Virus record (IMG/VR): IMGVR_UViG_3300032516_000156 | Location: 1-27,162 of that record | Strand: one strand, 5' to 3' | DNA length: 27,162 bases | Source of the DNA: a virus | In this document: in pieces, positions 2,408 through 20,802 of the stretch | Layout: each line of letters opens with the position of its first letter | How positions within the stretch are numbered: position 1 is the stretch's first letter | Notes under the pieces: model-generated | What the model was told of the DNA's origin: nothing | What the model saw: the letters and a program-made list of their open reading frames with translations, nothing else | Database searches by the model: none | Program-made: the position numbers and the translations under genes

Positions 2408-3352
2408 ATGCTAAAAGGAGTTTTTGTAAATCAACAACGTGCTAATTGTAGCATTTATGAGGCCGGAGTAATGATAAAAGATGCCCTTATGGGCGGAGAG
2501 CCAAATTATTCTTTAGAGTATAAGGAAGTAGATAGGCTTGGAAACATATTAATTTCTCAAGCCAAATATGATTTTTATGTTTTTAACTGGCATCCATTTA
2601 CCTTACCAATTACTCAAAAGAATATTAATAGGCTAAAAGGAACAAAAATAATAGTAGTTTTGGAAGTTACCCCAACGGTGTATCTTCCATATACTCCTCC
2701 TGTAGTTGATGCCTATATGATTATAGACCCAACCAAAGAAAGAACAAAAAACTACTATCCTTTTCCTAGACCACTAGAAGTAGTTTCTGATTTAAAACCT
2801 TTGTTAAGTACAGATAAAACGGTTATTGGCGGTTTTGGATTGGTATGTCCAACAGGTGCTGCTTTATCATATAAAAGATTTTATGAAGTAGTGGAAAATG
2901 CAAATAAAATCGGAAATTGTATTGTAAGATTTAATTTTCCAGAAGGTCAATTTACTGGTATTCCACTCTCAATGTTAAAGCAATATGGAGATACCCTTAA
3001 AAGACTAGCTAATCCAGATGTTGAAGTAATAGTAACTCATGATTATATGTCGAAACCAGAATTAATTAGATGGTGTTCAGAACACACTATAAATTCTTTT
3101 CCATATTATAGAGATTTATCTGGACTTTCAGCAGTAACAGACCAAGCTATTTCTGCTGGAAGGCCAATAGCAATTACTGACTGTAATACTTTCAGACATC
3201 TGCATAAATATATTTCTTATTATCCTAAACAATCTTATGAAGAACTTATAGTTTCTACACAATCTGGAGTTAAACAAATGCAAGAAGATTGGCATCCAAA
3301 TAAATTTCGTGAGAAGTTTAAGGAACTTCTTCATGAAAAGGGATTAATATGA
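2408..3352 (+). CDS. GT-B-like glycosyltransferase, paralog 1 of 3
   Basis: 314-residue soluble protein, first of three tandem paralogs. Shared landmarks are an N-terminal beta strand followed by a Cys-containing loop (NQQRANCSIYEAG), a mid-N-domain strand of the type KYDFYVFNWHPFTLP, the domain-two strand VIGGFGLVCPTG, and a C-terminal segment LSAVTDQAISAGRPIAITD. That segment occupies the place of the nucleotide-sugar-binding E-x7-E region in GT4-type enzymes. The usual first acidic residue is absent from this copy, so catalysis of the standard retaining type is not assured. It begins right after the previous stop, and its own stop overlaps the next gene as ATGA. The role is probably transfer of one sugar of a phage-encoded glycan. 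Donor and acceptor are unknown. Confidence 0.7.
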   Translation: MLKGVFVNQQRANCSIYEAGVMIKDALMGGEPNYSLEYKEVDRLGNILISQAKYDFYVFNWHPFTLPITQKNINRLKGTKIIVVLEVTPTVYLPYTPPVVDAYMIIDPTKERTKNYYPFPRPLEVVSDLKPLLSTDKTVIGGFGLVCPTGAALSYKRFYEVVENANKIGNCIVRFNFPEGQFTGIPLSMLKQYGDTLKRLANPDVEVIVTHDYMSKPELIRWCSEHTINSFPYYRDLSGLSAVTDQAISAGRPIAITDCNTFRHLHKYISYYPKQSYEELIVSTQSGVKQMQEDWHPNKFREKFKELLHEKGLI

Positions 3353-4293
3353 AAAAAATTCTTATAATAAATAATAGTATTAAGCCTTGTGGAATACAAC
3401 AGTGGGCAGAAAGAATACCAAAGATACTTAGAACATCTAAGAAATTCAATTTTATTTACAGAATGGTAATTAGAGAGTCAGATATTATTGGTGAAATATC
3501 TGCCATAAAACCAGATGTAGTTTTGTATAACTATAGTCCTTCTACCCTACCATACTTAACCAAAGAAACATTAGAACAGTTTAAAAGTATTAAGCACGTA
3601 GCCATAATACATGAAGGATACTCCATAGAAAAAAATGCGATTGGTTTTAATTATTTTATATATATGATATCAAAAGCCAACATTTCTTCAGAAATGGCAA
3701 GTAGAGTTTTTATTGTTCCAATTAGATATTTGTTGGAGTATTCTGGAGGGTATCCAAAAAATACAGTTCCTACAATAGGTAGTTTTGGATTTGGATTTCC
3801 AAGTAAAAGATTTGATTACATTGTAGAAAAAATAAATGAAGAGTTTGATGTTGCTGATATTAAATTTGCCATTTCTAATTCATTTCATGGAGATGTAAAT
3901 GGTTTTGTAACAGACGCAACAATAGAGTTATGTAGAACTAAAATAACCAAACCAAGGATTAGTTTACAAGTTAATAGAGATTTTCTTACCGATAATCAAG
4001 TTTTGGAATTTTTAGCCGGTAATGATATTAATTGTTTCTTTTATGATGCTTCTAAAACAGATGGAATTGCTGGCTCAACAGATTTTGCTCTTTCTGTAAA
4101 ACGCCCAATAGCAGTAACCAAAGTTCCTATGTTTGAACATCTGTATAGTTTAGTACCTTCAATTTGTATTGAAAATTCTTCTATAAAAGAAATAATGGGT
4201 AGAGGAATAGACCCATTAAAACCAATTTATGATGCATTTTCAAATGATAATTTTGTTAAATCATTTGAAAATATTCTAGAGGAAATAACTTGA
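3349..4293 (+). CDS. GT-B-like glycosyltransferase, paralog 2 of 3
   Basis: 314 residues, the same architecture as its neighbours: first strand and Cys loop NNSIKPCGIQQWAE, KPDVVLYNYSPSTLPYL, IGSFGFGFPSKRFDYIV, then LEFLAGNDINCFFYD and GIAGSTDFALSVKRPIAVT. The last block is nearly identical to the corresponding block of paralog 3 (LASSLDYALSVKRSIAV), so these two are closer to each other than to paralog 1. The ATG overlaps the upstream stop by 4 nt. No signal peptide or membrane helix is seen, so it should act in the cytoplasm. Glycosyltransferase assignment rests on fold-like motif order and context rather than on a conserved catalytic residue, so a degenerate or non-catalytic role cannot be excluded. 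Confidence 0.7.
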   Translation: MKKILIINNSIKPCGIQQWAERIPKILRTSKKFNFIYRMVIRESDIIGEISAIKPDVVLYNYSPSTLPYLTKETLEQFKSIKHVAIIHEGYSIEKNAIGFNYFIYMISKANISSEMASRVFIVPIRYLLEYSGGYPKNTVPTIGSFGFGFPSKRFDYIVEKINEEFDVADIKFAISNSFHGDVNGFVTDATIELCRTKITKPRISLQVNRDFLTDNQVLEFLAGNDINCFFYDASKTDGIAGSTDFALSVKRPIAVTKVPMFEHLYSLVPSICIENSSIKEIMGRGIDPLKPIYDAFSNDNFVKSFENILEEIT

Positions 4294-5228
4294 AAACAGT
4301 ATTATTTATAAATTCTACAGTAGCTAATTGTGGTATTTACCAATTTGGTAACCGTGTATATGAAATAGTAAAAGATTCTGAAGGGATAAATTATATTTAT
4401 AAGGAACCAACTTCTCTTAATGAATATATGAATTTATTACTTACAATTAAACCAGATTTTGTATTTTTAAATTGGTATAGTACAGTTATGAGTTGGCTTC
4501 CTTATACACATAAAATTCCATCAAAAATTCCACACTATTATGTTTTTCATGAAAGACCTATTAGAAAATATTATGATAAGTACATATTTTTTGGTGATTA
4601 TGGAATACAAAATGGAATTATAGATTCAAGTAATATATTATCTCCAGAAAAGTGCGTTACTCTAACCAGACCATTATTTAACTATGTTAATTTATATCCA
4701 AAAAATGATATACCAACAATTGGAACCTTCGGGTTTATGAGTAGTTATCAAAAGGGATTTGATACTTTAACTAAGCGAATTAATAAAGAATTTGATAAAG
4801 CTATTTTTAATTTACATATGGTTTGGTCTCCTTTTTGTGATGTTTATAAATCAATGTTACAAGAAATGGTAATTAGGTGTATAAAATTAAATACTAATCC
4901 TGGTATACAACTTAATATAACACATGACCTTTTTGATAATAAGACAATGTTAGATTTTCTAGCAAGAAACGATATTAATATTTTTATGTATAATGATTTA
5001 CCACAATTTGGATTGGCTAGTTCTTTAGATTATGCATTATCAGTAAAAAGGTCAATAGCGGTAGATTCTAATAATTCATTTAGACATGTATTAAAAGATG
5101 AAATTAATATAGATAAACACTCAATAAAAGAAATTATGAACTTAGGAACCAAACCACTAGAAGAATTTTATGTTGCTTGGTCTTCAGAAAATCTAAAGAA
5201 AGGAATGGCTTCATTATTCCATGTATGA
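4290..5228 (+). CDS. GT-B-like glycosyltransferase, paralog 3 of 3 (TTG start)
   Basis: 312 residues. The start is TTG at 4290, overlapping the previous stop as TTGA, with an AGAGGAAA ribosome binding site just upstream. Initiation here places the first strand KTVLFINSTVANCGIYQFG in register with both paralogs, which supports the choice. Other matched blocks are KPDFVFLNWYSTVMSWLP, IGTFGFMSSYQKGFDTL, LDFLARNDINIFMYND and LASSLDYALSVKRSIAVD. The C-terminal codons overlap the next gene by 8 nt. Likely a cytosolic sugar transferase acting with its two paralogs, for example on successive residues or different acceptors. Donor specificity is not readable. Confidence 0.7.
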   Translation: MKTVLFINSTVANCGIYQFGNRVYEIVKDSEGINYIYKEPTSLNEYMNLLLTIKPDFVFLNWYSTVMSWLPYTHKIPSKIPHYYVFHERPIRKYYDKYIFFGDYGIQNGIIDSSNILSPEKCVTLTRPLFNYVNLYPKNDIPTIGTFGFMSSYQKGFDTLTKRINKEFDKAIFNLHMVWSPFCDVYKSMLQEMVIRCIKLNTNPGIQLNITHDLFDNKTMLDFLARNDINIFMYNDLPQFGLASSLDYALSVKRSIAVDSNNSFRHVLKDEINIDKHSIKEIMNLGTKPLEEFYVAWSSENLKKGMASLFHV

Positions 5229-11549: not shown

Positions 11550-12452
11550 ATGGATGAAAAATTAAAGGATGCTGTCGCTTCCGTAATAAAGGACTCAGGG
11601 AAGAGAGACGCACTTGCTCAGATGATTGTGGAGTATGCTAATCCCGGTCATATTGGGGTTGATTTTATTGGTATGTTCTTGAATACCAGAGCACTTCAAC
11701 CCGGAGACCAGCTTGTTAAGAAAATGAGAAAGGGTATTAAAGTTCGCACGCTTGTTCCCGGTGCTATTCATCTGAAAGATGAAATCACTGTGTCAGAACG
11801 TATGAACTATGTTCTAGACGGTGCTGTTGTTAGCGTTGGTGCTAATGCTTGGGAATTAGATTCAGGTGAACTTGGTACTGTTGGTTCAATTCGTAACGAG
11901 ATGCTCTCCAAACTTCGTGACTTTTACTTCGGTAAAGTCTTCACAGCTCTTTCAACCCTGTGGACTGCTGGTAATAACGCTACTAACTTTACGGACATTG
12001 GTGGTGATATTACCGCTCTAGCTCTGAAAAATGCCATTGATTATATCAATGAAACTACAGGTGGAGTTCGTGCTGTTATTGGTACTCGTGCTGCCTTGAC
12101 ACCTATTACTACCTTTGGTGCTTCTTGGTCTGATGGTACTGATAATATTGAAGTTCCTGACAATATTCGTGAAATAATGCAAACCGGTTGGTTAGGACGC
12201 TATTATGGTGCTCCTATTATAGCTGTTGAGCAGGTCTACGATAATCTTGATGATTATAACACTATGATTCCTACCGATAAGGTTGTTGTTATTGGTAAGA
12301 ATGTTGGTGAGTTTATTACTTACGGTGACATTAAATATCAAGAATGGACTGACCCACGACCCATACCTCCGTACTGGACTCTGTCTTTATATCAGCAATT
12401 TGGTATGATTATAGACAAGGCCGAAGGTATCTTTGTTCTAGAAGTTGTGTAA
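11550..12452 (+). CDS. Major capsid protein
   Basis: 300-residue shell protein, probably HK97-fold. Evidence is position (portal, protease/scaffold, decoration, then this gene), a near-consensus ribosome binding site AGGAGG at 11533-11538, marked codon bias (9 of 12 Arg codons are CGN, against almost all AGA in the cassette) and a hairpin terminator directly after it. The early segment (about 60-95, KGIKVRTLVPGAIHLKDEIT) could be the E-loop. NEMLSKLRDFYFGKVFTAL looks like the long spine helix, and IPPYWTLSLYQQFGMII is a typical P-domain end where capsid proteins return to strand. No Lys/Asn cross-link chemistry can be assigned. Confidence 0.82.
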   Translation: MDEKLKDAVASVIKDSGKRDALAQMIVEYANPGHIGVDFIGMFLNTRALQPGDQLVKKMRKGIKVRTLVPGAIHLKDEITVSERMNYVLDGAVVSVGANAWELDSGELGTVGSIRNEMLSKLRDFYFGKVFTALSTLWTAGNNATNFTDIGGDITALALKNAIDYINETTGGVRAVIGTRAALTPITTFGASWSDGTDNIEVPDNIREIMQTGWLGRYYGAPIIAVEQVYDNLDDYNTMIPTDKVVVIGKNVGEFITYGDIKYQEWTDPRPIPPYWTLSLYQQFGMIIDKAEGIFVLEVV

Positions 12453-13174: not shown

Positions 13175-13546
13175 ATGGGAAAAGTAGCCCCAGATTCAAT
13201 GATTGATGCCGCATTTGCTTATGTACAAGCGTGCGATAAAGAGTTTGTTTGTTCAGCAGAACCTACTGACTATAGTAATGCCGCAACTGTTGTGGATTTA
13301 GCAACAACCGCAATGACACCCACTACAGATTTTCCAGTAGCTAATGGTACAAGTGGTCGTAAATGTACCCCAGCCGCAAAGTCTGGTGTAACTATTGATC
13401 ATGGTGGAACAGCAACACATATAGCCCTTGGTTTAACTGCTGGTTCAACCCTGAGATATGTTACAACTTGTACCTCACAGGTTCTAACTGGTGGTGGTAC
13501 GGTTGATATTCCCGCTTGGATAATTCAAATAAACGACCCTACCTAA
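13175..13546 (+). CDS. Virion protein, small head/appendage family
   Basis: 123 residues. The layout DSMIDAAFAYVQACDKEFVCSAEP, then SGRKCTPAAKSGVTI, GGTATHIALGLT and TLRYVTTCTSQ, with a C-terminal strand, matches a common family of small phage structural proteins, which I recall from many tailed phages, usually encoded between capsid and tail genes. Beta-rich, soluble, no signal. Start ATG is supported by TAGGAGAA upstream. The exact place in the virion is not known to me. Confidence 0.62.
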   Translation: MGKVAPDSMIDAAFAYVQACDKEFVCSAEPTDYSNAATVVDLATTAMTPTTDFPVANGTSGRKCTPAAKSGVTIDHGGTATHIALGLTAGSTLRYVTTCTSQVLTGGGTVDIPAWIIQINDPT

Positions 13547-13558
13547 AAGGAGGCAATT

Positions 13559-14023
13559 ATGCCTAGTAGATACCAGTGTGCAGGTCGTTCAACAGCTACT
13601 GCCTCCACCGCAGACTACGTTATAGCTAACTTCTGGAATCCACATGCAAGTAAACCATTGTGTGTAAGAGAGATTTGGTATGCAAAAACCATATCGACAG
13701 CAGATTATATACAGGTTGCTCGTTCAACCACTGCTGGAACAACCCCAGGGAGTACTGTAACTCCAAATATATACAATGATAGAGATAGACAACTTGCTCC
13801 AGGAACAGGTGTGCTGTTGTATATGGGAACATACGCATCTACTCAGCCTGTCTTACAAACTCCTGCTCTAGCCAGATATGCTTTACCTGCCGCTATTGGA
13901 TCAGGTATAGTATTGGTATTCGATCCTCCTATTAGAGTTGCTGCTGGTGAGGGATTAGCAGTTGCAACATCCGTAGCCACAATAGGACAACCAGCAGATG
14001 TAACTTTTGTCTGGGAGGAGTAA
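13559..14023 (+). CDS. Beta-rich virion protein, tandem paralog A
   Basis: 154 residues, with strong ribosome site AAAAGGAGG. Tandem paralog of the next gene: shared blocks are RYxxxGR near the start, TTPGSTVTPNIYNDRDRxLAP, an AAIGSG-like turn, FDPPIRV, GEGLAVA and the identical end FVWEE. Strands alternating with Gly/Ala-Thr turns suggest a beta-sandwich or jelly-roll fold. Proteins with this pattern recur beside head and appendage genes in siphoviruses. A decoration, head-fibre or adhesion role is an inference. Confidence 0.65.
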   Translation: MPSRYQCAGRSTATASTADYVIANFWNPHASKPLCVREIWYAKTISTADYIQVARSTTAGTTPGSTVTPNIYNDRDRQLAPGTGVLLYMGTYASTQPVLQTPALARYALPAAIGSGIVLVFDPPIRVAAGEGLAVATSVATIGQPADVTFVWEE

Positions 14024-14025
14024 TT

Positions 14026-14484
14026 ATGACACAAAGATACTCAGTAAGCGGAAGAAATGCCGCTACGGGTGCTTCAGTTGACCAAGCAGGAGCAGTATTG
14101 TGGAACGCCTCTGCAATAAAAGTAATTTATTGTAGAGAGATAAGTGGGTTTACCTCATCTGCTGTAGCATGGGCATTACAACTTATTAGGACCTCTACAA
14201 GAGGAACTCCAGGAAGCACAGTAACTCCGGATATTGACAATGATAGAGACCGTTTGTTAGCTCCTCAATCCACTTGTGTTTTAGACCTTGGATTATTTTC
14301 ATCTGCTCCTACAGTACAAGGACCTGCTATGGCAAGAACACACCTAGGTGCAGTTATTGGAAGTGCATTTGGTTGGATATTTGATCCTCCTATTGCTATT
14401 CCAGCAGGAACCGGATTGGCTATTGCAAATGTTCCAGCAACTGCTAGTCCCACTGTAGATTGGACTTTTGTCTGGGAGGAATAA
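14026..14484 (+). CDS. Beta-rich virion protein, tandem paralog B
   Basis: 152 residues, two bases after paralog A, with ribosome site GGGAGGAG inside the end of the previous gene. Shared landmarks with A are GTPGSTVTPDIDNDRDRLLAP, AVIGS, IFDPPIAIP, GTGLAIA and TFVWEE. Divergence outside these motifs indicates an old duplication rather than a recent copy. The pair may form a heteromeric surface assembly or may have specialised in binding. Confidence 0.65.
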   Translation: MTQRYSVSGRNAATGASVDQAGAVLWNASAIKVIYCREISGFTSSAVAWALQLIRTSTRGTPGSTVTPDIDNDRDRLLAPQSTCVLDLGLFSSAPTVQGPAMARTHLGAVIGSAFGWIFDPPIAIPAGTGLAIANVPATASPTVDWTFVWEE

Positions 14485-14487
14485 CCC

Positions 14488-16281
14488 TTGCCTAGTTATA
14501 GAACCGGATCTTCTCTTTATGCGGTTCAACTATTTCATCAAACCACCAAAAGTAGTTCTTCTGGTGGTATTGCCAATACCTCCGGTATGGCAACCGGAAT
14601 GGAAGATAAAAGACTACTAGATACACATGCAAAATTTTATAAGGGACTATCTCAATCTAACACAGATGCTTATTTTGTAGCAAATCTTCCACCCCCTACA
14701 GTAGAAGTTCAAGACTCAACGCAAGACCAGTCTGCTGAAAATGTAGTTCTTATACAACATAATATCCTTGTAGTACAGGATGCTACCCAACTACAGTCAG
14801 TAGATACTGTCGGATACCTTGTTCAGAATCTTGCAGTACAGGACGCTACACAGGATCATACAGTTGAAAATATAGGATACCTAGTTCAGAATCTAGCTGT
14901 AGATGCTGCTACTCACGACCATACCGCAGAAAATGTTGGGTATCTAACTCAGAATTTAGCAGTTCAAGACTCAACGCAAGACCAATCTGCTGAAAATGTA
15001 GTCGTTACTGCTCATGAACCAGTAACAGTACTTGAAGTTCAAGATGCTACTCAGAATCATTCTGTAGAAAATGTTGTTCTAGTACAGCATAATATCTTAG
15101 TAGTTCAAGACGCAACACAAGACCAATCTGCTGAAAATTGTACCTTAATACAGCATAATATACTGGTAGTAGATAATGCCACACAACTACAAACAGCAGA
15201 GAATGTCATTGTTACCGCTCACGGAGTTCTTCTAGTAGTAGATAACGCTACACAAGACCATACTGTTGAAAACGTAGGGTACTTCACTCAGAATCTAGCT
15301 GTTCAGGACGCTACCCAAGCACAGTCAGCAGATACAGTAGGAATATTTACACAAAATCTAGTTGTTCAAGATGCTACCCAAACTCAGACATCAGAGACTG
15401 TAGACTTAGTTCAACATAATATTTTAGCAGTACAAGATTCAACTCAACTACAAACTTCTGAAAACACTGTGTTAGTACAGCACAACCTACTTGTAGTAAG
15501 TGACGCAACTCAGTTACAAACATCCGAAAATGTTGTACTAATTCAACATAATATACTAGCTGTAGACAATGCCACTCAAGACCATACTGCGGAGAACTGT
15601 GTTGTAATTGCTCATGCTCCAGGAGCAGTGGTAGCGGAAATACAAGACGCTACTCAGAGTCACTCAGCAGAAAATGTAGTTCTTGTACAGCACAATATAT
15701 TAGTAGTAGACAATGCTACTCAGGCCCATACTGTTGAAAGTGTAGGGCTAACTCAACATAATATTCTTTCTGTAGATAATGCAACTCAATTACAATCTGT
15801 AGAGAATGTATTATTAGAAATATCAGTTGCTATACAGAACGCTACACAAGACCAAAGTGCAGAAAATGTAGTTCTAGTTCAACATCATATTCTGGAAGTT
15901 CAGAACTGTTATCAGGATATGATCAGTGAGACAGTAGGACTTGTACAGCATAACATACTTGTAGTACAGGATGCCACACAACTTCACTCCGCAGAAGAGA
16001 TAATCTTCTATATATTACCTGCAATATTGGAAGTACAAGATGCAATACATTATCAAACTTCCGAGATTCTTGACCTTGTACAACATAATATACTTCAGGT
16101 GGATGATGCAATTCAAATACATATTTCTGATACAATAGATATGACCCCACTATTTGTTTTGTTATTCGCACTAAATTACGCCAGAGGTTACTTCAACGAT
16201 TTGAGTATAGATAGAAATCAAGAGGTAGGTAAAGATTTGAAAATAACAAAGGCCATAACAAAGACTTTTAGGAGAAGGTAA
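14488..16281 (+). CDS. Repeat-built virion surface protein (22 repeats)
   Basis: 597 residues starting at TTG 14488. GGGAGGAA lies eight bases upstream, and the first residues MPSY parallel the start of paralog A (MPSRY), which supports the choice. Residues 1-71 form a non-repeat N-terminal domain, perhaps an anchor. Residues 72 to about 550 consist of 22 degenerate repeats, mostly 22 residues, with consensus VQDATQ-x-x-(S/T)-AENV-x-L-x-QHNIL-x. The last about 45 residues end in a basic tail (KTFRRR). The strict strand-turn periodicity suggests a fibrous beta structure. The many Ser, Thr and Asn positions make it a possible glycan acceptor, which is speculation. No enzymatic motif. Confidence 0.72.
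   Translation: MPSYRTGSSLYAVQLFHQTTKSSSSGGIANTSGMATGMEDKRLLDTHAKFYKGLSQSNTDAYFVANLPPPTVEVQDSTQDQSAENVVLIQHNILVVQDATQLQSVDTVGYLVQNLAVQDATQDHTVENIGYLVQNLAVDAATHDHTAENVGYLTQNLAVQDSTQDQSAENVVVTAHEPVTVLEVQDATQNHSVENVVLVQHNILVVQDATQDQSAENCTLIQHNILVVDNATQLQTAENVIVTAHGVLLVVDNATQDHTVENVGYFTQNLAVQDATQAQSADTVGIFTQNLVVQDATQTQTSETVDLVQHNILAVQDSTQLQTSENTVLVQHNLLVVSDATQLQTSENVVLIQHNILAVDNATQDHTAENCVVIAHAPGAVVAEIQDATQSHSAENVVLVQHNILVVDNATQAHTVESVGLTQHNILSVDNATQLQSVENVLLEISVAIQNATQDQSAENVVLVQHHILEVQNCYQDMISETVGLVQHNILVVQDATQLHSAEEIIFYILPAILEVQDAIHYQTSEILDLVQHNILQVDDAIQIHISDTIDMTPLFVLLFALNYARGYFNDLSIDRNQEVGKDLKITKAITKTFRRR
14701..16143 (+). repeat. Degenerate 66-nt coding repeats (22 copies)
   Basis: Tandem in-frame repeats with a period near 66 nt. 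Copies 2-4, 9 and 10 carry a VG-Y/I-x-x-QNL variant in place of L-x-QHNIL. Copies 5, 8 and 14 carry longer turns (TAHEPVTVLE, TAHGVLLV, IAHAPGAVVAE). Copies 19-22 are degenerate and more hydrophobic. DNA copies are diverged at synonymous sites except for a 40-nt pair at 14707 and 14962. Confidence 0.85.
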
Positions 16282-16602
16282 ATGGAAGAGATTACTAAAT
16301 TACGTTTAGGTGATGTTGGAACGGTATTCAGGATAAGGGTTGTAGAGGATGATCTTCCAGTAGACCTACAATCCTGTACTGTAAAACAAATCTTACTTAA
16401 GAAGCCAGATGGAACTTATCTTACCAAGACAGCTAGTTTCTATACTAATGGAATAGATGGATATATTCAATATACATCTGTTGAAGGAGATATAGACCAG
16501 ACTGGTATATGGAAGATACAGGGATATGTTGAATTTACTAACCAAGGGTGGCATACCACCATAGATTCTTTCTTGGTACAAATCAATATATCTGAGGATT
16601 AA
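16282..16602 (+). CDS. BppU-N-like immunoglobulin-fold virion protein
   Basis: 106 residues, one Ig-like domain. The sequence LRLGDVGTVFRIRVVEDDLPVDLQ, then LKKPDGTYLTKTASFY, GYIQYTSVEGDIDQTGIWKIQGYVEF and a final SFLVQINI follows the pattern of the N-terminal domain of baseplate upper proteins (BppU_N) and similar fibre-anchoring Ig domains. It stands alone here, without the usual C-terminal fibre. The ATG follows the previous stop directly. Likely role: small adaptor or decoration domain joining surface proteins. Confidence 0.62.
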   Translation: MEEITKLRLGDVGTVFRIRVVEDDLPVDLQSCTVKQILLKKPDGTYLTKTASFYTNGIDGYIQYTSVEGDIDQTGIWKIQGYVEFTNQGWHTTIDSFLVQINISED

Positions 16603-16605
16603 TAA

Positions 16606-16734
16606 ATGGCTACTAGAACTTTTACTAATGGCGGAGTAAACAATCTGTGGACAACTGCTGGCAATTGGGATACTCCTGAAGGAAGATGGACAGCTACATC
16701 TGAGTCGTTTAAAGTAAGAGGAGAATTTGATTAA
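16606..16734 (+). CDS. 42-aa partial duplicate of the spike N-terminus
   Basis: Short reading frame MATRTFTNGGVNNLWTTAGN, then WDT and a 19-residue unrelated tail. Its first 23 residues match the first 23 of the following gene at 14 positions, including R-T-F, NNLW and NWDT. The stop overlaps the next ATG by one base (TAATG), and the ribosome site AGAGGAG of the next gene lies inside it. It may be a remnant left by deletion within a tandem duplicate, or a tiny coupled leader peptide. A GAGGAT motif precedes its own ATG. Confidence 0.5.
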   Translation: MATRTFTNGGVNNLWTTAGNWDTPEGRWTATSESFKVRGEFD

Positions 16735-18551
16735 TGCCTACTAGAACCTTTGCAACAGCAGGAATAAATAATTTATGGAGTAACTCTGCTAACTGGGATA
16801 CAGGAGTTCCAGCTAATACAGATACTGCTATTATTCCAGTTGGACAAACGGTTGAATTTGATGTAAGTCAAAGTGGATTCGCTGCTGGAATAACACTAAC
16901 ACTTAATGGAGTTTTTACTGCCTCACTTACTGCCGGTACTTATTACTTGAAATTACAAGATAATGTAACTGGAACAGGAACATTTAGAGCAGGAACAGAG
17001 GCAGTTCCATACCCCACAACTTGTTTATTTACCATATATTTTGCTGCTGGAAAAGCATTTACTGGCAGTTTGGTAATGGATATAAATTGTACAGAACCCA
17101 CACATAGATATATAAAACTAAGTCAGGCTGAAATTGCTGGAGCAACTCTTCTTCATGTGGATGATGATGTTGTTGGAGATTTGTGGGCTGTTGGAAATGT
17201 AATACATATTGATAATATAAATAAAGCACAACAAAGTGAGGAAAGAACCATTGCGGCAGGTGGCATAACTGCAACCACAATCACCATTACAGCCGGATTA
17301 ACCGCAGCCAAATTACTAGGAGCTAAAGTAATTTTACTTAACAGGAACATTATTATTACAGGAGCATTATCTACGCCCTTTAATGCGGTAACAACTGCTG
17401 GAAGAGTTTTTGCGTATGTAAGAAGTTATATGGGATTTACCTCTTGTAGTAATCTTGTAATAGGAGGAGTCTTAGCATATTCTGGTTCGTCATTTGGAAT
17501 TGTTATGTGTTCTTACATCACTTTTATTGGAGTGGCTACTGGACTACTGAGCTTCGCTCAATATTCTCAATACTGTACTTTTAATGGGTTTTATAGTGGT
17601 TGTTATGACACCTTTAATAACATATGGCAAGGTTGTACTATAGGAGGTTTAATAAGCGGGGCTAGGTCTGGACTCAACGGAGCACAACCAGATATAAAAA
17701 TTACTGCGACAATAGAATATAGTCAATATGGGATAATAACCCTCAGTGGAGGACTTTTTACTGGAACAATTAGATATGGTAGTTATGGTATTTATCCTCA
17801 AGAAGGAATATCAGACATTGTAATATCAGGAACTATTTCATACTGTACTACAGGTATAAGAAATGGTACAAATCTTCGTATAATAAATGCCAATATACTT
17901 AATAATACTACTGGAATGGTTGGAGGAAATGGTATTATAGTAGATACCATATTTTCGGGAAATACTTACGATTTTAGTTTGGATGAGGGCGGTTCTTGGA
18001 AACTATATAATACCCCACTTCCAGTTGTTAATAGGTCTGCACCCAAGTATTCAGAAAATTCTTTTTCATTTATAGAATCATTTAATGATACTGTAGAAGG
18101 AAATTATAAGGCATGGTCAAGGAATGGGCCTACAATTTCTGTTAATGACCCTGTTCCTGATGGGTTTGTAAGAGCCTATAAAACAACGCTTCTTGAAGCA
18201 AATTATTGTGCATTTTGGCAAAGAGAAGTTTTAGTTCCAGCAAATGCAACCATTTCATTTGTCATGTGGATTCGTAAGTCTGTATCTATGTTGTATAATC
18301 CTCGATGGTGGATATTTCCAGAAAGTATGGAACCATTTTATTCTGGAACACCACTAAAAGAATTTATATTTCCTGATGATGATAATGATGTGTGGGAACA
18401 AGATACATATGTATATACCAATACCAGTAACTATGATAAAACCCTTATTGCTAGATGTATAGGAAAAAACGCAAGCGGTGATATATTCTCGCAGTTGATT
18501 ATTACGTCTAGTATGGCTCCCCGCTCAAGAGGACTTGGAGGTGTTGGATGA
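16734..18551 (+). CDS. Spike/fibre protein with G8-like domain and beta-helix
   Basis: 605 residues. About residues 14-100 match the G8-domain pattern: W..ANWDTGVPANTDTAIIP, VGQTVEFD, then repeated strands leading to GTFRAGTEAVPYP. About 130-195 follows the post-G8 pattern WAVGNVIHID and SEERTI. Residues about 205-420 are short strands with turn Asn/Gly ladders (YGIITLSGGLFTGTI, TNLRIINANILNNTTG), typical of a right-handed parallel beta-helix. Residues about 435-595 look like a beta-sandwich, perhaps carbohydrate-binding (RWWIFPES, YTNTSNY). No signal peptide. The likely role is a virion spike or receptor-binding/polysaccharide-binding protein. No catalytic residues can be assigned. It overlaps the next gene by ATGA. 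Confidence 0.72.
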   Translation: MPTRTFATAGINNLWSNSANWDTGVPANTDTAIIPVGQTVEFDVSQSGFAAGITLTLNGVFTASLTAGTYYLKLQDNVTGTGTFRAGTEAVPYPTTCLFTIYFAAGKAFTGSLVMDINCTEPTHRYIKLSQAEIAGATLLHVDDDVVGDLWAVGNVIHIDNINKAQQSEERTIAAGGITATTITITAGLTAAKLLGAKVILLNRNIIITGALSTPFNAVTTAGRVFAYVRSYMGFTSCSNLVIGGVLAYSGSSFGIVMCSYITFIGVATGLLSFAQYSQYCTFNGFYSGCYDTFNNIWQGCTIGGLISGARSGLNGAQPDIKITATIEYSQYGIITLSGGLFTGTIRYGSYGIYPQEGISDIVISGTISYCTTGIRNGTNLRIINANILNNTTGMVGGNGIIVDTIFSGNTYDFSLDEGGSWKLYNTPLPVVNRSAPKYSENSFSFIESFNDTVEGNYKAWSRNGPTISVNDPVPDGFVRAYKTTLLEANYCAFWQREVLVPANATISFVMWIRKSVSMLYNPRWWIFPESMEPFYSGTPLKEFIFPDDDNDVWEQDTYVYTNTSNYDKTLIARCIGKNASGDIFSQLIITSSMAPRSRGLGGVG

Positions 18552-19644: not shown

Positions 19645-20802
19645 ATGATAAATGTATTATGGATTTCGGACTTAGTAGTTCCTACGGGTTGGTCTAGAGT
19701 AGCACACGGAATTATTAAACATCTACCAAAAGAAGAATTTAGTATAACAGGTTTGGGAATAAATTACTTTGGAGACCCACACCCATATGATTTTCCGATT
19801 TATCCCGCAGCAGTAGGTCAATTAGGAGACATTTATGGATTTAGTCGCTTAGAAGGAATTCTAAAGTCTAAAAAATTTGACCTAATCTATATTCTAAACG
19901 ATATCTGGGTAATAAAGGAGTACTTAAAGAGATTAGAATCGTTTAAAGAATATAGACCTAAGATAGTTGTATATTTTCCTGTAGATGCTAGAGACCATGA
20001 CCCTGAATGGTACACCAATATTCCACTAGTTGATAAGGCAGTAGTTTATACTAAATTTGGAAAAGAAGTTGCAGAAAAAGCACTACCTGATTACTCTTTT
20101 GATATAATTCCTCATGGAATAGACCAAGAAATGTTCTTTCCTGTAGATAGAACATTAGCTAGAAAATCTATTTTTAAAAACGCAGAATTGGAAACAGCAT
20201 ATATTATTTTAAACGCCAATAGAAATCAACCACGTAAAAGATTAGAGCTAACTCTGGAAGGTTTTAAATTATTTGCAGAAAATAAACCAAGTAACGTTTT
20301 AATTTATATGCACTGTGGGGTAATGGATTCTGATTTAAAAATAACTAATTTAGCAACCAGACTTGGTATAAGTAAAAGACTTATTGTAACTAGTTTTAAA
20401 ACTGGAGTTCAAAGTGTAACAGTAGAGAAATTAAATCTTATTTACAATGCTTCCAATATAGGAATAAATACTTCTCTTGGAGAAGGTTGGGGTCTTTGTA
20501 ATATGGAACATGCAATAACTGGTGCTCCGCAGATAGTTCCAGATTCTAGTGCTTGTGGTGAAGTTTTTAAAGATTGTGGACTATTAATTCCTAATGGCGA
20601 CCCCTTTATTCAAACTAAAGTTATGACCACAGGAATCTTAGTTCATCCAACAGATGTAGCGGAACAAATGGAAAAACTATACACTGATGGGGCACTATAT
20701 AAGAAACTTTCTAAAGCAGCACTAAAAAAGTTTTCTTCGCCAGAATATAGTTGGAAAAATATTGCTGGAAAGTGGGCAGAGGAATTTAAAAACGTATTAT
20801 GA
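19645..20802 (+). CDS. GT4-family glycosyltransferase among neck genes
   Basis: 385-residue GT-B glycosyltransferase, full length for GT4. The N-terminal domain starts INVLWISDLVVPTGWSRVA, the Gly-rich acceptor loop. IPHGID at 155-160 is the typical linker motif. NANRNQPRKRLELTLEGF at 190-207 carries the phosphate-binding Arg and Lys. The E-x7-E motif is E280 and E288 in GEGWGLCNMEHA, followed by GAPQIVPD. All catalytic landmarks are intact. Start ATG 19645 has AGAAAGGA six bases upstream. An out-of-frame ATG at 19641 is ignored. It overlaps the next neck gene by 4 nt, so it is co-translated with virion assembly genes. No membrane segment. Confidence 0.9.
   Translation: MINVLWISDLVVPTGWSRVAHGIIKHLPKEEFSITGLGINYFGDPHPYDFPIYPAAVGQLGDIYGFSRLEGILKSKKFDLIYILNDIWVIKEYLKRLESFKEYRPKIVVYFPVDARDHDPEWYTNIPLVDKAVVYTKFGKEVAEKALPDYSFDIIPHGIDQEMFFPVDRTLARKSIFKNAELETAYIILNANRNQPRKRLELTLEGFKLFAENKPSNVLIYMHCGVMDSDLKITNLATRLGISKRLIVTSFKTGVQSVTVEKLNLIYNASNIGINTSLGEGWGLCNMEHAITGAPQIVPDSSACGEVFKDCGLLIPNGDPFIQTKVMTTGILVHPTDVAEQMEKLYTDGALYKKLSKAALKKFSSPEYSWKNIAGKWAEEFKNVL

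Follow-up and report, generated by a model that had tools for sequence, protein, structure and literature searches.

Within the window, the 27,162-nucleotide stretch that was analysed as a whole (positions 1 to 27,162 of the viral record IMGVR_UViG_3300032516_000156), a gene next to the head genes encodes a protein made up largely of units of about 22 residues. This raises the question of what kind of protein it is and where it would serve in the phage. We analyzed the repeat array, its relatives in other viral genomes, its neighbours and its predicted fold. The protein is probably a structural fibre or stalk associated with the head or neck of the virion, forming a module with the small gene g13175.

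Anatomy and conservation of the repeat array

The repeat protein gene (14488..16281; features written as x..y lie on the plus strand) is an open reading frame of 597 aa with a TTG start, preceded by the Shine-Dalgarno sequence GGGAGGA at 14474..14480. Both are kept in L009, one of the contigs with an orthologue (L001/L015, L009, L022 and L023). The N-terminal 75 aa (MPSYRTGSS...NLPPPTVEVQ, 14488..14712) are also conserved in L009 and gave no match among cultured phages; by eye, the protein start in L083 resembles them. The repeat array (14713..16170) follows, and 3' of it lies a basic C-terminal tail (16171..16278).

The initial annotation had proposed 22 copies, QNL-type variants at copies 2-4 and 9-10 and longer turns at copies 5, 8 and 14, all of which we could confirm. 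Exactly 22 units were counted, with lengths of 22, 21, 21, 21, 25, 22, 22, 23, 21, 21 and 22 residues for copies 1-11 and 22, 22, 26, 22, 22, 20, 22, 22, 23, 22 and 22 for copies 12-22. Unit typing assigned the QNL type to copies 2-4 (14779..14967) and 9-10 (15244..15369), each of 21 aa. The long turns belong to copy 5 (14968..15042, 25 aa), copy 8 (15175..15243, 23 aa) and copy 14 (15568..15645, 26 aa, AHAPGAVVAEIQ); copy 20 is likewise long (23 aa), copy 17 is short (15778..15837, 20 aa) and the last four copies (19-22) are degenerate. None of 2000 shuffles contained the core motif more than 2 times, compared with 22 occurrences in the protein, and identity autocorrelation has its maximum at lag 22 (0.31; mean 0.09). 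At the DNA level the 22-aa units are just 61% identical to each other and Tandem Repeats Finder reports 2.7 copies. The array is therefore an old, protein-level repeat and not a recent DNA expansion.

The composition of the array is strongly acidic, with 36 Asp and 27 Glu (63 in total) and no Lys or Arg in its 483 residues (residues 73-555). Because of this, trypsin would leave residues 53-566 as a single peptide (about 514 residues), and trypsin-based virion proteomics would largely miss the protein. HxH occurs in 1 of the 22 copies; the remainder carry QxQ, QxH, HxQ or QxM.

Among the orthologues, the gene of contig IMGVR_UViG_3300031746_000309 (L001/L015) differs by one nucleotide, while the proteins of L009, L022 and L023 are 56-60% identical to that of the window. 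L022 has the unit lengths of the window, except that a TAH-type copy and two QNL copies are swapped: the QNL pair (copies 9-10 of the window) lies 5' of the TAH-type copy in L009 and L022 and 3' of it in the window. The L009 array is like that of L022 with three extra copies, and in L023, where the contig begins inside the gene, 20 copies are seen. Near its N-terminus the L009 protein also has an insertion, a domain of roughly 160-170 residues that has no Pfam match and that, on reading its sequence, we take to be DNRLRE-like. The type and order of copies 2-4 and the long turn of copy 5 are the same in L009 and L022. Copies 14 and 17 are kept in four genomes, which also agree fully in the lengths of the final nine units. 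Compared with 1000 shuffles, the order of the repeats agrees with that of the orthologues at z values of 9.9, 9.6 and 7.1. The order of variant units, largely conserved and far beyond chance, is thus inherited, which supports the earlier proposal of ordered, specialised sections. For the gene as a whole, comparison with L009 gave dN 0.29 and dS 1.13, which indicates purifying selection.

The wider repeat family and its partner gene

The gene g13175 (13175..13546, 123 aa) has no Pfam match, and the copy in the window has no PHROG match; profile searches of Pfam and PDB found no relative. Together with the repeat gene it is the only gene of the window that recurs in unrelated repeat contigs, where the capsid, terminase and portal of the window were not found. 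Such contigs came from a degenerate DNA pattern search, which revealed 16 viral stretches with repeats mostly of the form DASHxHTADNVxLTQ. A profile of the window family aligned with one of the other repeat contigs at E 7.7e-19 over 42 of 44 columns. The repeat of the wider family can be written as [DN]A-x-[HQ]-x-[HQ]-T-A-[DE]-N-V-x-L-x-Q-x-x-x-L-x-V. Across genome contigs the pattern had one match, an Omnitrophota MAG contig; plasmids gave no match.

Starting from the repeat, a g13175 profile found the partner gene in 13 of 18 repeat records; the five others are L009, L022 and L023, whose contigs end too soon, the 4.1 kb fragment L011 and a bacterial MAG. Starting from g13175, at least 355 viral contigs matched, of which 80 were fetched and reduced to 55 non-redundant loci. 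The repeat was scored in 34 of these 55 and, where at least 4 kb of downstream sequence was available, in 27 of 39 (29 of 39 if L083 and L126, recognised by eye, are added). At many loci less than 60 bases separate the two genes; at some the repeat gene lies 5' of g13175 or several genes distant. Repeat and g13175 are thus linked across unrelated phages from either search direction. We took a profile match together with g13175 in the same module as the mark of a new repeat family, and the window has both. Among 50,697 cultured phage records, Microcystis phage Mae-JY22 is the sole carrier of g13175 or the repeat, and it has both. Environmental phages therefore commonly carry a component, probably structural, that has been left unannotated, since at least 355 contigs carry g13175 and most of those examined with sufficient sequence have the repeat, compared with one of 50,697 cultured records.

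Because the DNA pattern had restricted positions 4 and 6 to His or Gln, the residue tallies were drawn from the loci found via g13175 without the repeat pattern (357 repeats, 34 proteins). Asp or Asn occupies position 1 in 81% and Ala position 2 in 75% of these repeats, Asp or Glu position 9 in 84%, Leu positions 13 and 19 in 92% and 83%, and Gln position 15 in 71%. Positions 11, 13, 19 and 21 are regularly hydrophobic. Acidic residues average 2.24 per repeat and basic residues 0.05. The pair at positions 4 and 6 is of the type HxH in 140 repeats, QxQ in 61, HxQ in 43, LxL in 17 and HxV in 16, besides others. Most arrays use one type, HxH being the common form of the wider family. The arrays of L064, L120, L086 and L096 are of HxV, LxL or SxS type instead of HxH, mostly uniformly throughout.

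Array identity accounts for 0.78, 0.74 and 0.66 of the residue entropy at positions 4, 6 and 8 (null 0.21) and for 0.56 at the next-highest position. These three positions vary together across whole arrays (HxH, QxQ, HxV, LxL, SxS). Their 4-6-8 alternation implies that they share one side of a strand, which in the simplest case would be turned towards the core of the fold. Agreement between nearest-neighbour repeats was above chance at position 3 (z 5.1) and weakly at position 4 (z 2.9), and not at positions 6 and 8. As agreement at 6 and 8 is no better between neighbouring than between distant repeats, we do not claim rung-to-rung stacking; the concerted change may have its source in array ancestry or in array-wide selection.

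In the wider family the array is usually preceded by a variable N-terminal domain, and three relatives contain LamG. A C-terminal module beginning LSGLTPxxxFSxxDHQRxYWEAQTGL... is shared among L063, L071, L072, L083, L091 and L094; some of its carriers are repeat proteins, whereas others are encoded 3' of g13175 and have no recognised repeats. The family is large and uncatalogued, and its members are probably fibre-like virion proteins.

Gene neighbourhood, predicted fold and possible roles

In many unrelated phages the module is preceded by genes for terminase, portal, major head and scaffolding proteins and followed by genes for head-tail adaptors, neck and head morphogenesis proteins. The window has the order terminase (6904), portal (8445), protease-like gene (9952) and probable capsid (11550), followed by the module. 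The probable major capsid protein (11550..12452) matches phrog_29, a major head protein, at E=0.003 and phrog_16565, of unknown function, at 1.3e-13. Searches of cultured phages gave no match for the capsid and g14026 and one distant record for the terminase. Two paralogous genes of 154 and 152 aa (13559..14484, 47% mutual identity) lie between g13175 and the repeat gene. Directly 3' of the latter is a gene for a BppU_N-domain protein (16282..16602; PF10651, 4.1e-7), whose orthologues are 61-96% identical.

Further genes of the window are of interest in their own right. A G8-domain-like protein (16734-18551; Pfam G8 below cut-off) is 34% identical to its counterpart in L001, a contig otherwise nearly identical to the window, and absent from the corresponding place in L009, L022 and L023; perhaps it is a variable host-recognition gene. 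A glycosyltransferase (group 1, GT4) is encoded at 19645-20802 within the head/tail operon, with 55-79% identity to L009, L022 and L023. Three paralogous proteins of 312-314 aa (2408-5228), presumably glycosyltransferase-like as judged by reading, lie near a GDP-mannose 4,6-dehydratase (38-958) and a methyltransferase (948-2168); the one tested gave no Pfam match.

Given its surroundings of genes for terminase, portal, capsid and neck proteins, the repeat protein is probably a head- or neck-associated fibre; that it belongs to the virion at all we infer solely from this neighbourhood. The position in the head module supports a head or neck component and is compatible with a part of the tail.

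A regular repeat protein with beta structure had been anticipated, and the AlphaFold2 (AF2) models agree with this, showing only beta structure, with each repeat forming two to three strands. The model of the full protein (five sequences) had a pLDDT of 42 and about three strands per repeat; it was used for secondary structure alone, being too poor otherwise. Six repeats (42 sequences) were predicted as a beta-solenoid at low confidence, with a pLDDT of 66.8 and a pTM of 0.61. The turn of variable length is a predicted inter-strand turn around positions 14-19. A fibrous beta form is plausible.

The chain might be a monomeric parallel beta-solenoid with one rung per repeat and ladders of Gln, His, Leu or Ser inside. 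The six-repeat model indeed aligns with parallel beta-helices, namely with tailspike 6nw9 (Z 11.9, rmsd 2.6 over 129 residues) and also with CsgA 8enq (Z 11.0, rmsd 8.5), and array-wide matching of positions 4, 6 and 8 would fit such ladders. However, Foldseek gave no match at E<=0.001, and AF2 is known to make unrealistic beta-solenoids from repeats, one sign of which is the stacking of uncompensated charges (PMC11795689). In an in-register solenoid about 2.2 Asp/Glu per repeat would stack, uncompensated by 0.05 Lys/Arg, and for this reason we doubt it, although it keeps some chance of being correct. We favour over it a homotrimer in the style of HxH proteins and of PTR (PF12789, "Phage tail repeat like"), to which we give roughly an even chance.

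The protein could also be a tail fibre of the PTR/HxH kind, acting in receptor binding and encoded in the head module by chance. Proteins of cultured phages that resemble PTR carry tail or minor tail protein annotations, LamG domains occur in the three relatives mentioned, and the HxH motifs of the R22Y tail fibre gp12 stand at steps of 22 residues (135, 157, 179, 201; PMC11705849). The head/neck neighbourhood in many unrelated phages argues against it, however, and none of nine PTR phages tested has g13175, so that we regard a tail fibre as rather improbable.

Still less likely is the earlier suggestion that the long turns bind host receptors or take up glycans from phage glycosyltransferases. 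The marked length changes do sit in one turn and the GT4 gene at 19645, conserved in the orthologues, lies nearby, this proximity being the sole tie. However, the longest turn, that of copy 14, ranks with the best-conserved parts across four genomes, unlike a variable receptor site, and the repeat gene of L001 differs by one nucleotide whereas the nearby G8-domain-like protein, the variable neighbour, is just 34% identical. We therefore consider these roles unsupported. A disordered or non-structural acidic protein outside the virion would fit the low AF2 confidence and the strong negative charge, but the regular hydrophobic positions 11, 13, 19 and 21, the purifying selection and the place in the head operon make it very improbable.

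For the head- or neck-associated fibre, the repeat protein and g13175 would be made as one module, and with each 22-residue unit the fibre would gain a beta-rich segment. Within one strand, positions 4, 6 and 8 would lie at the fibre core and be matched over the entire array. The versions HxH, QxQ, HxV, LxL and SxS would follow from this matching, the window being QxQ/QxH, and length variation would be confined to the turn around positions 14-19. Adhesion would sit in the variable N-terminal domain (LamG in some) that precedes the array. A more specific version, which we put forward tentatively and think somewhat doubtful, is a widespread, uncatalogued two-gene phage-head fibre module in which the acidic array, almost free of Lys and Arg, can swap its entire core chemistry in concert while keeping its fold (HxH as metal-binding type, QxQ or SxS as polar and LxL as hydrophobic type), g13175 is a dedicated anchor or assembly partner and divalent cations may be required for folding.

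Relation to PTR and other known fibre systems

The repeat protein gave nothing meaningful against Pfam, NCBIfam and PDB sequences, and the repeat profile had no match in PDB. Matches to Abhydro_lipase (0.037), Ribosomal_L27 (L010) and Caspase (L008) were read as low-complexity chance. In PHROG the window protein weakly matches phrog_12973 (2.9e-5) and phrog_38767 (1.6e-4), which are short models of unknown function.

The closest known system is PTR. The relative L013 passes PF12789 at 1.6e-14, above the curated cut-off of 27 bits, and other relatives of the H.H type match more weakly. Aligned with PTR repeats of cultured phages, the H.H family scored 21.9 in the exact HxH register, compared with at most 17.9 in 60 period-preserving shuffles. 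The H.H relatives are thus probably related to PTR, as judged from these alignments. PF12789 did not match the window protein up to E<=0.1, nor did a scan of the whole window up to E<=10 reveal it, and the profile of the window family scored 5.4 against PTR repeats, with a null of up to 18.6. The window protein is therefore not filed under PTR. It shares the 22-residue period, and the HxH-T of the H.H relatives stands in the same register as in PTR. However, where PTR has GLQxALDGK the window protein has a hydrophobic beta segment and no Lys, and HxH in every repeat, which is our reading of the PTR members, is found in just one of its 22 copies.

Curlin/CsgA and the parallel beta-helix tailspikes, with about 22 residues per rung, are resembled by the low-confidence AF2 model; they have no sequence link to the window protein, and the Pfam scans gave no curlin families. 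The PDB chain 9d93_La ("Tail collar fibers, gp4"), which we take to be from phage Bxb1, matches a self-written PTR-like query and neither the window protein nor the family profile. As a solved phage fibre it is a possible structural guide. In trimeric HxH phage fibres (T4 gp37 type) a homotrimer holds metal on its threefold axis. For the R22Y fibre, both the trimer and iron binding are predictions (PMC11705849), and its HxH motifs correspond to QxQ/QxH in the window array. The series HxH, QxQ, HxV, LxL and SxS offers a natural test of the role of HxH in phage fibres, including the iron claim.
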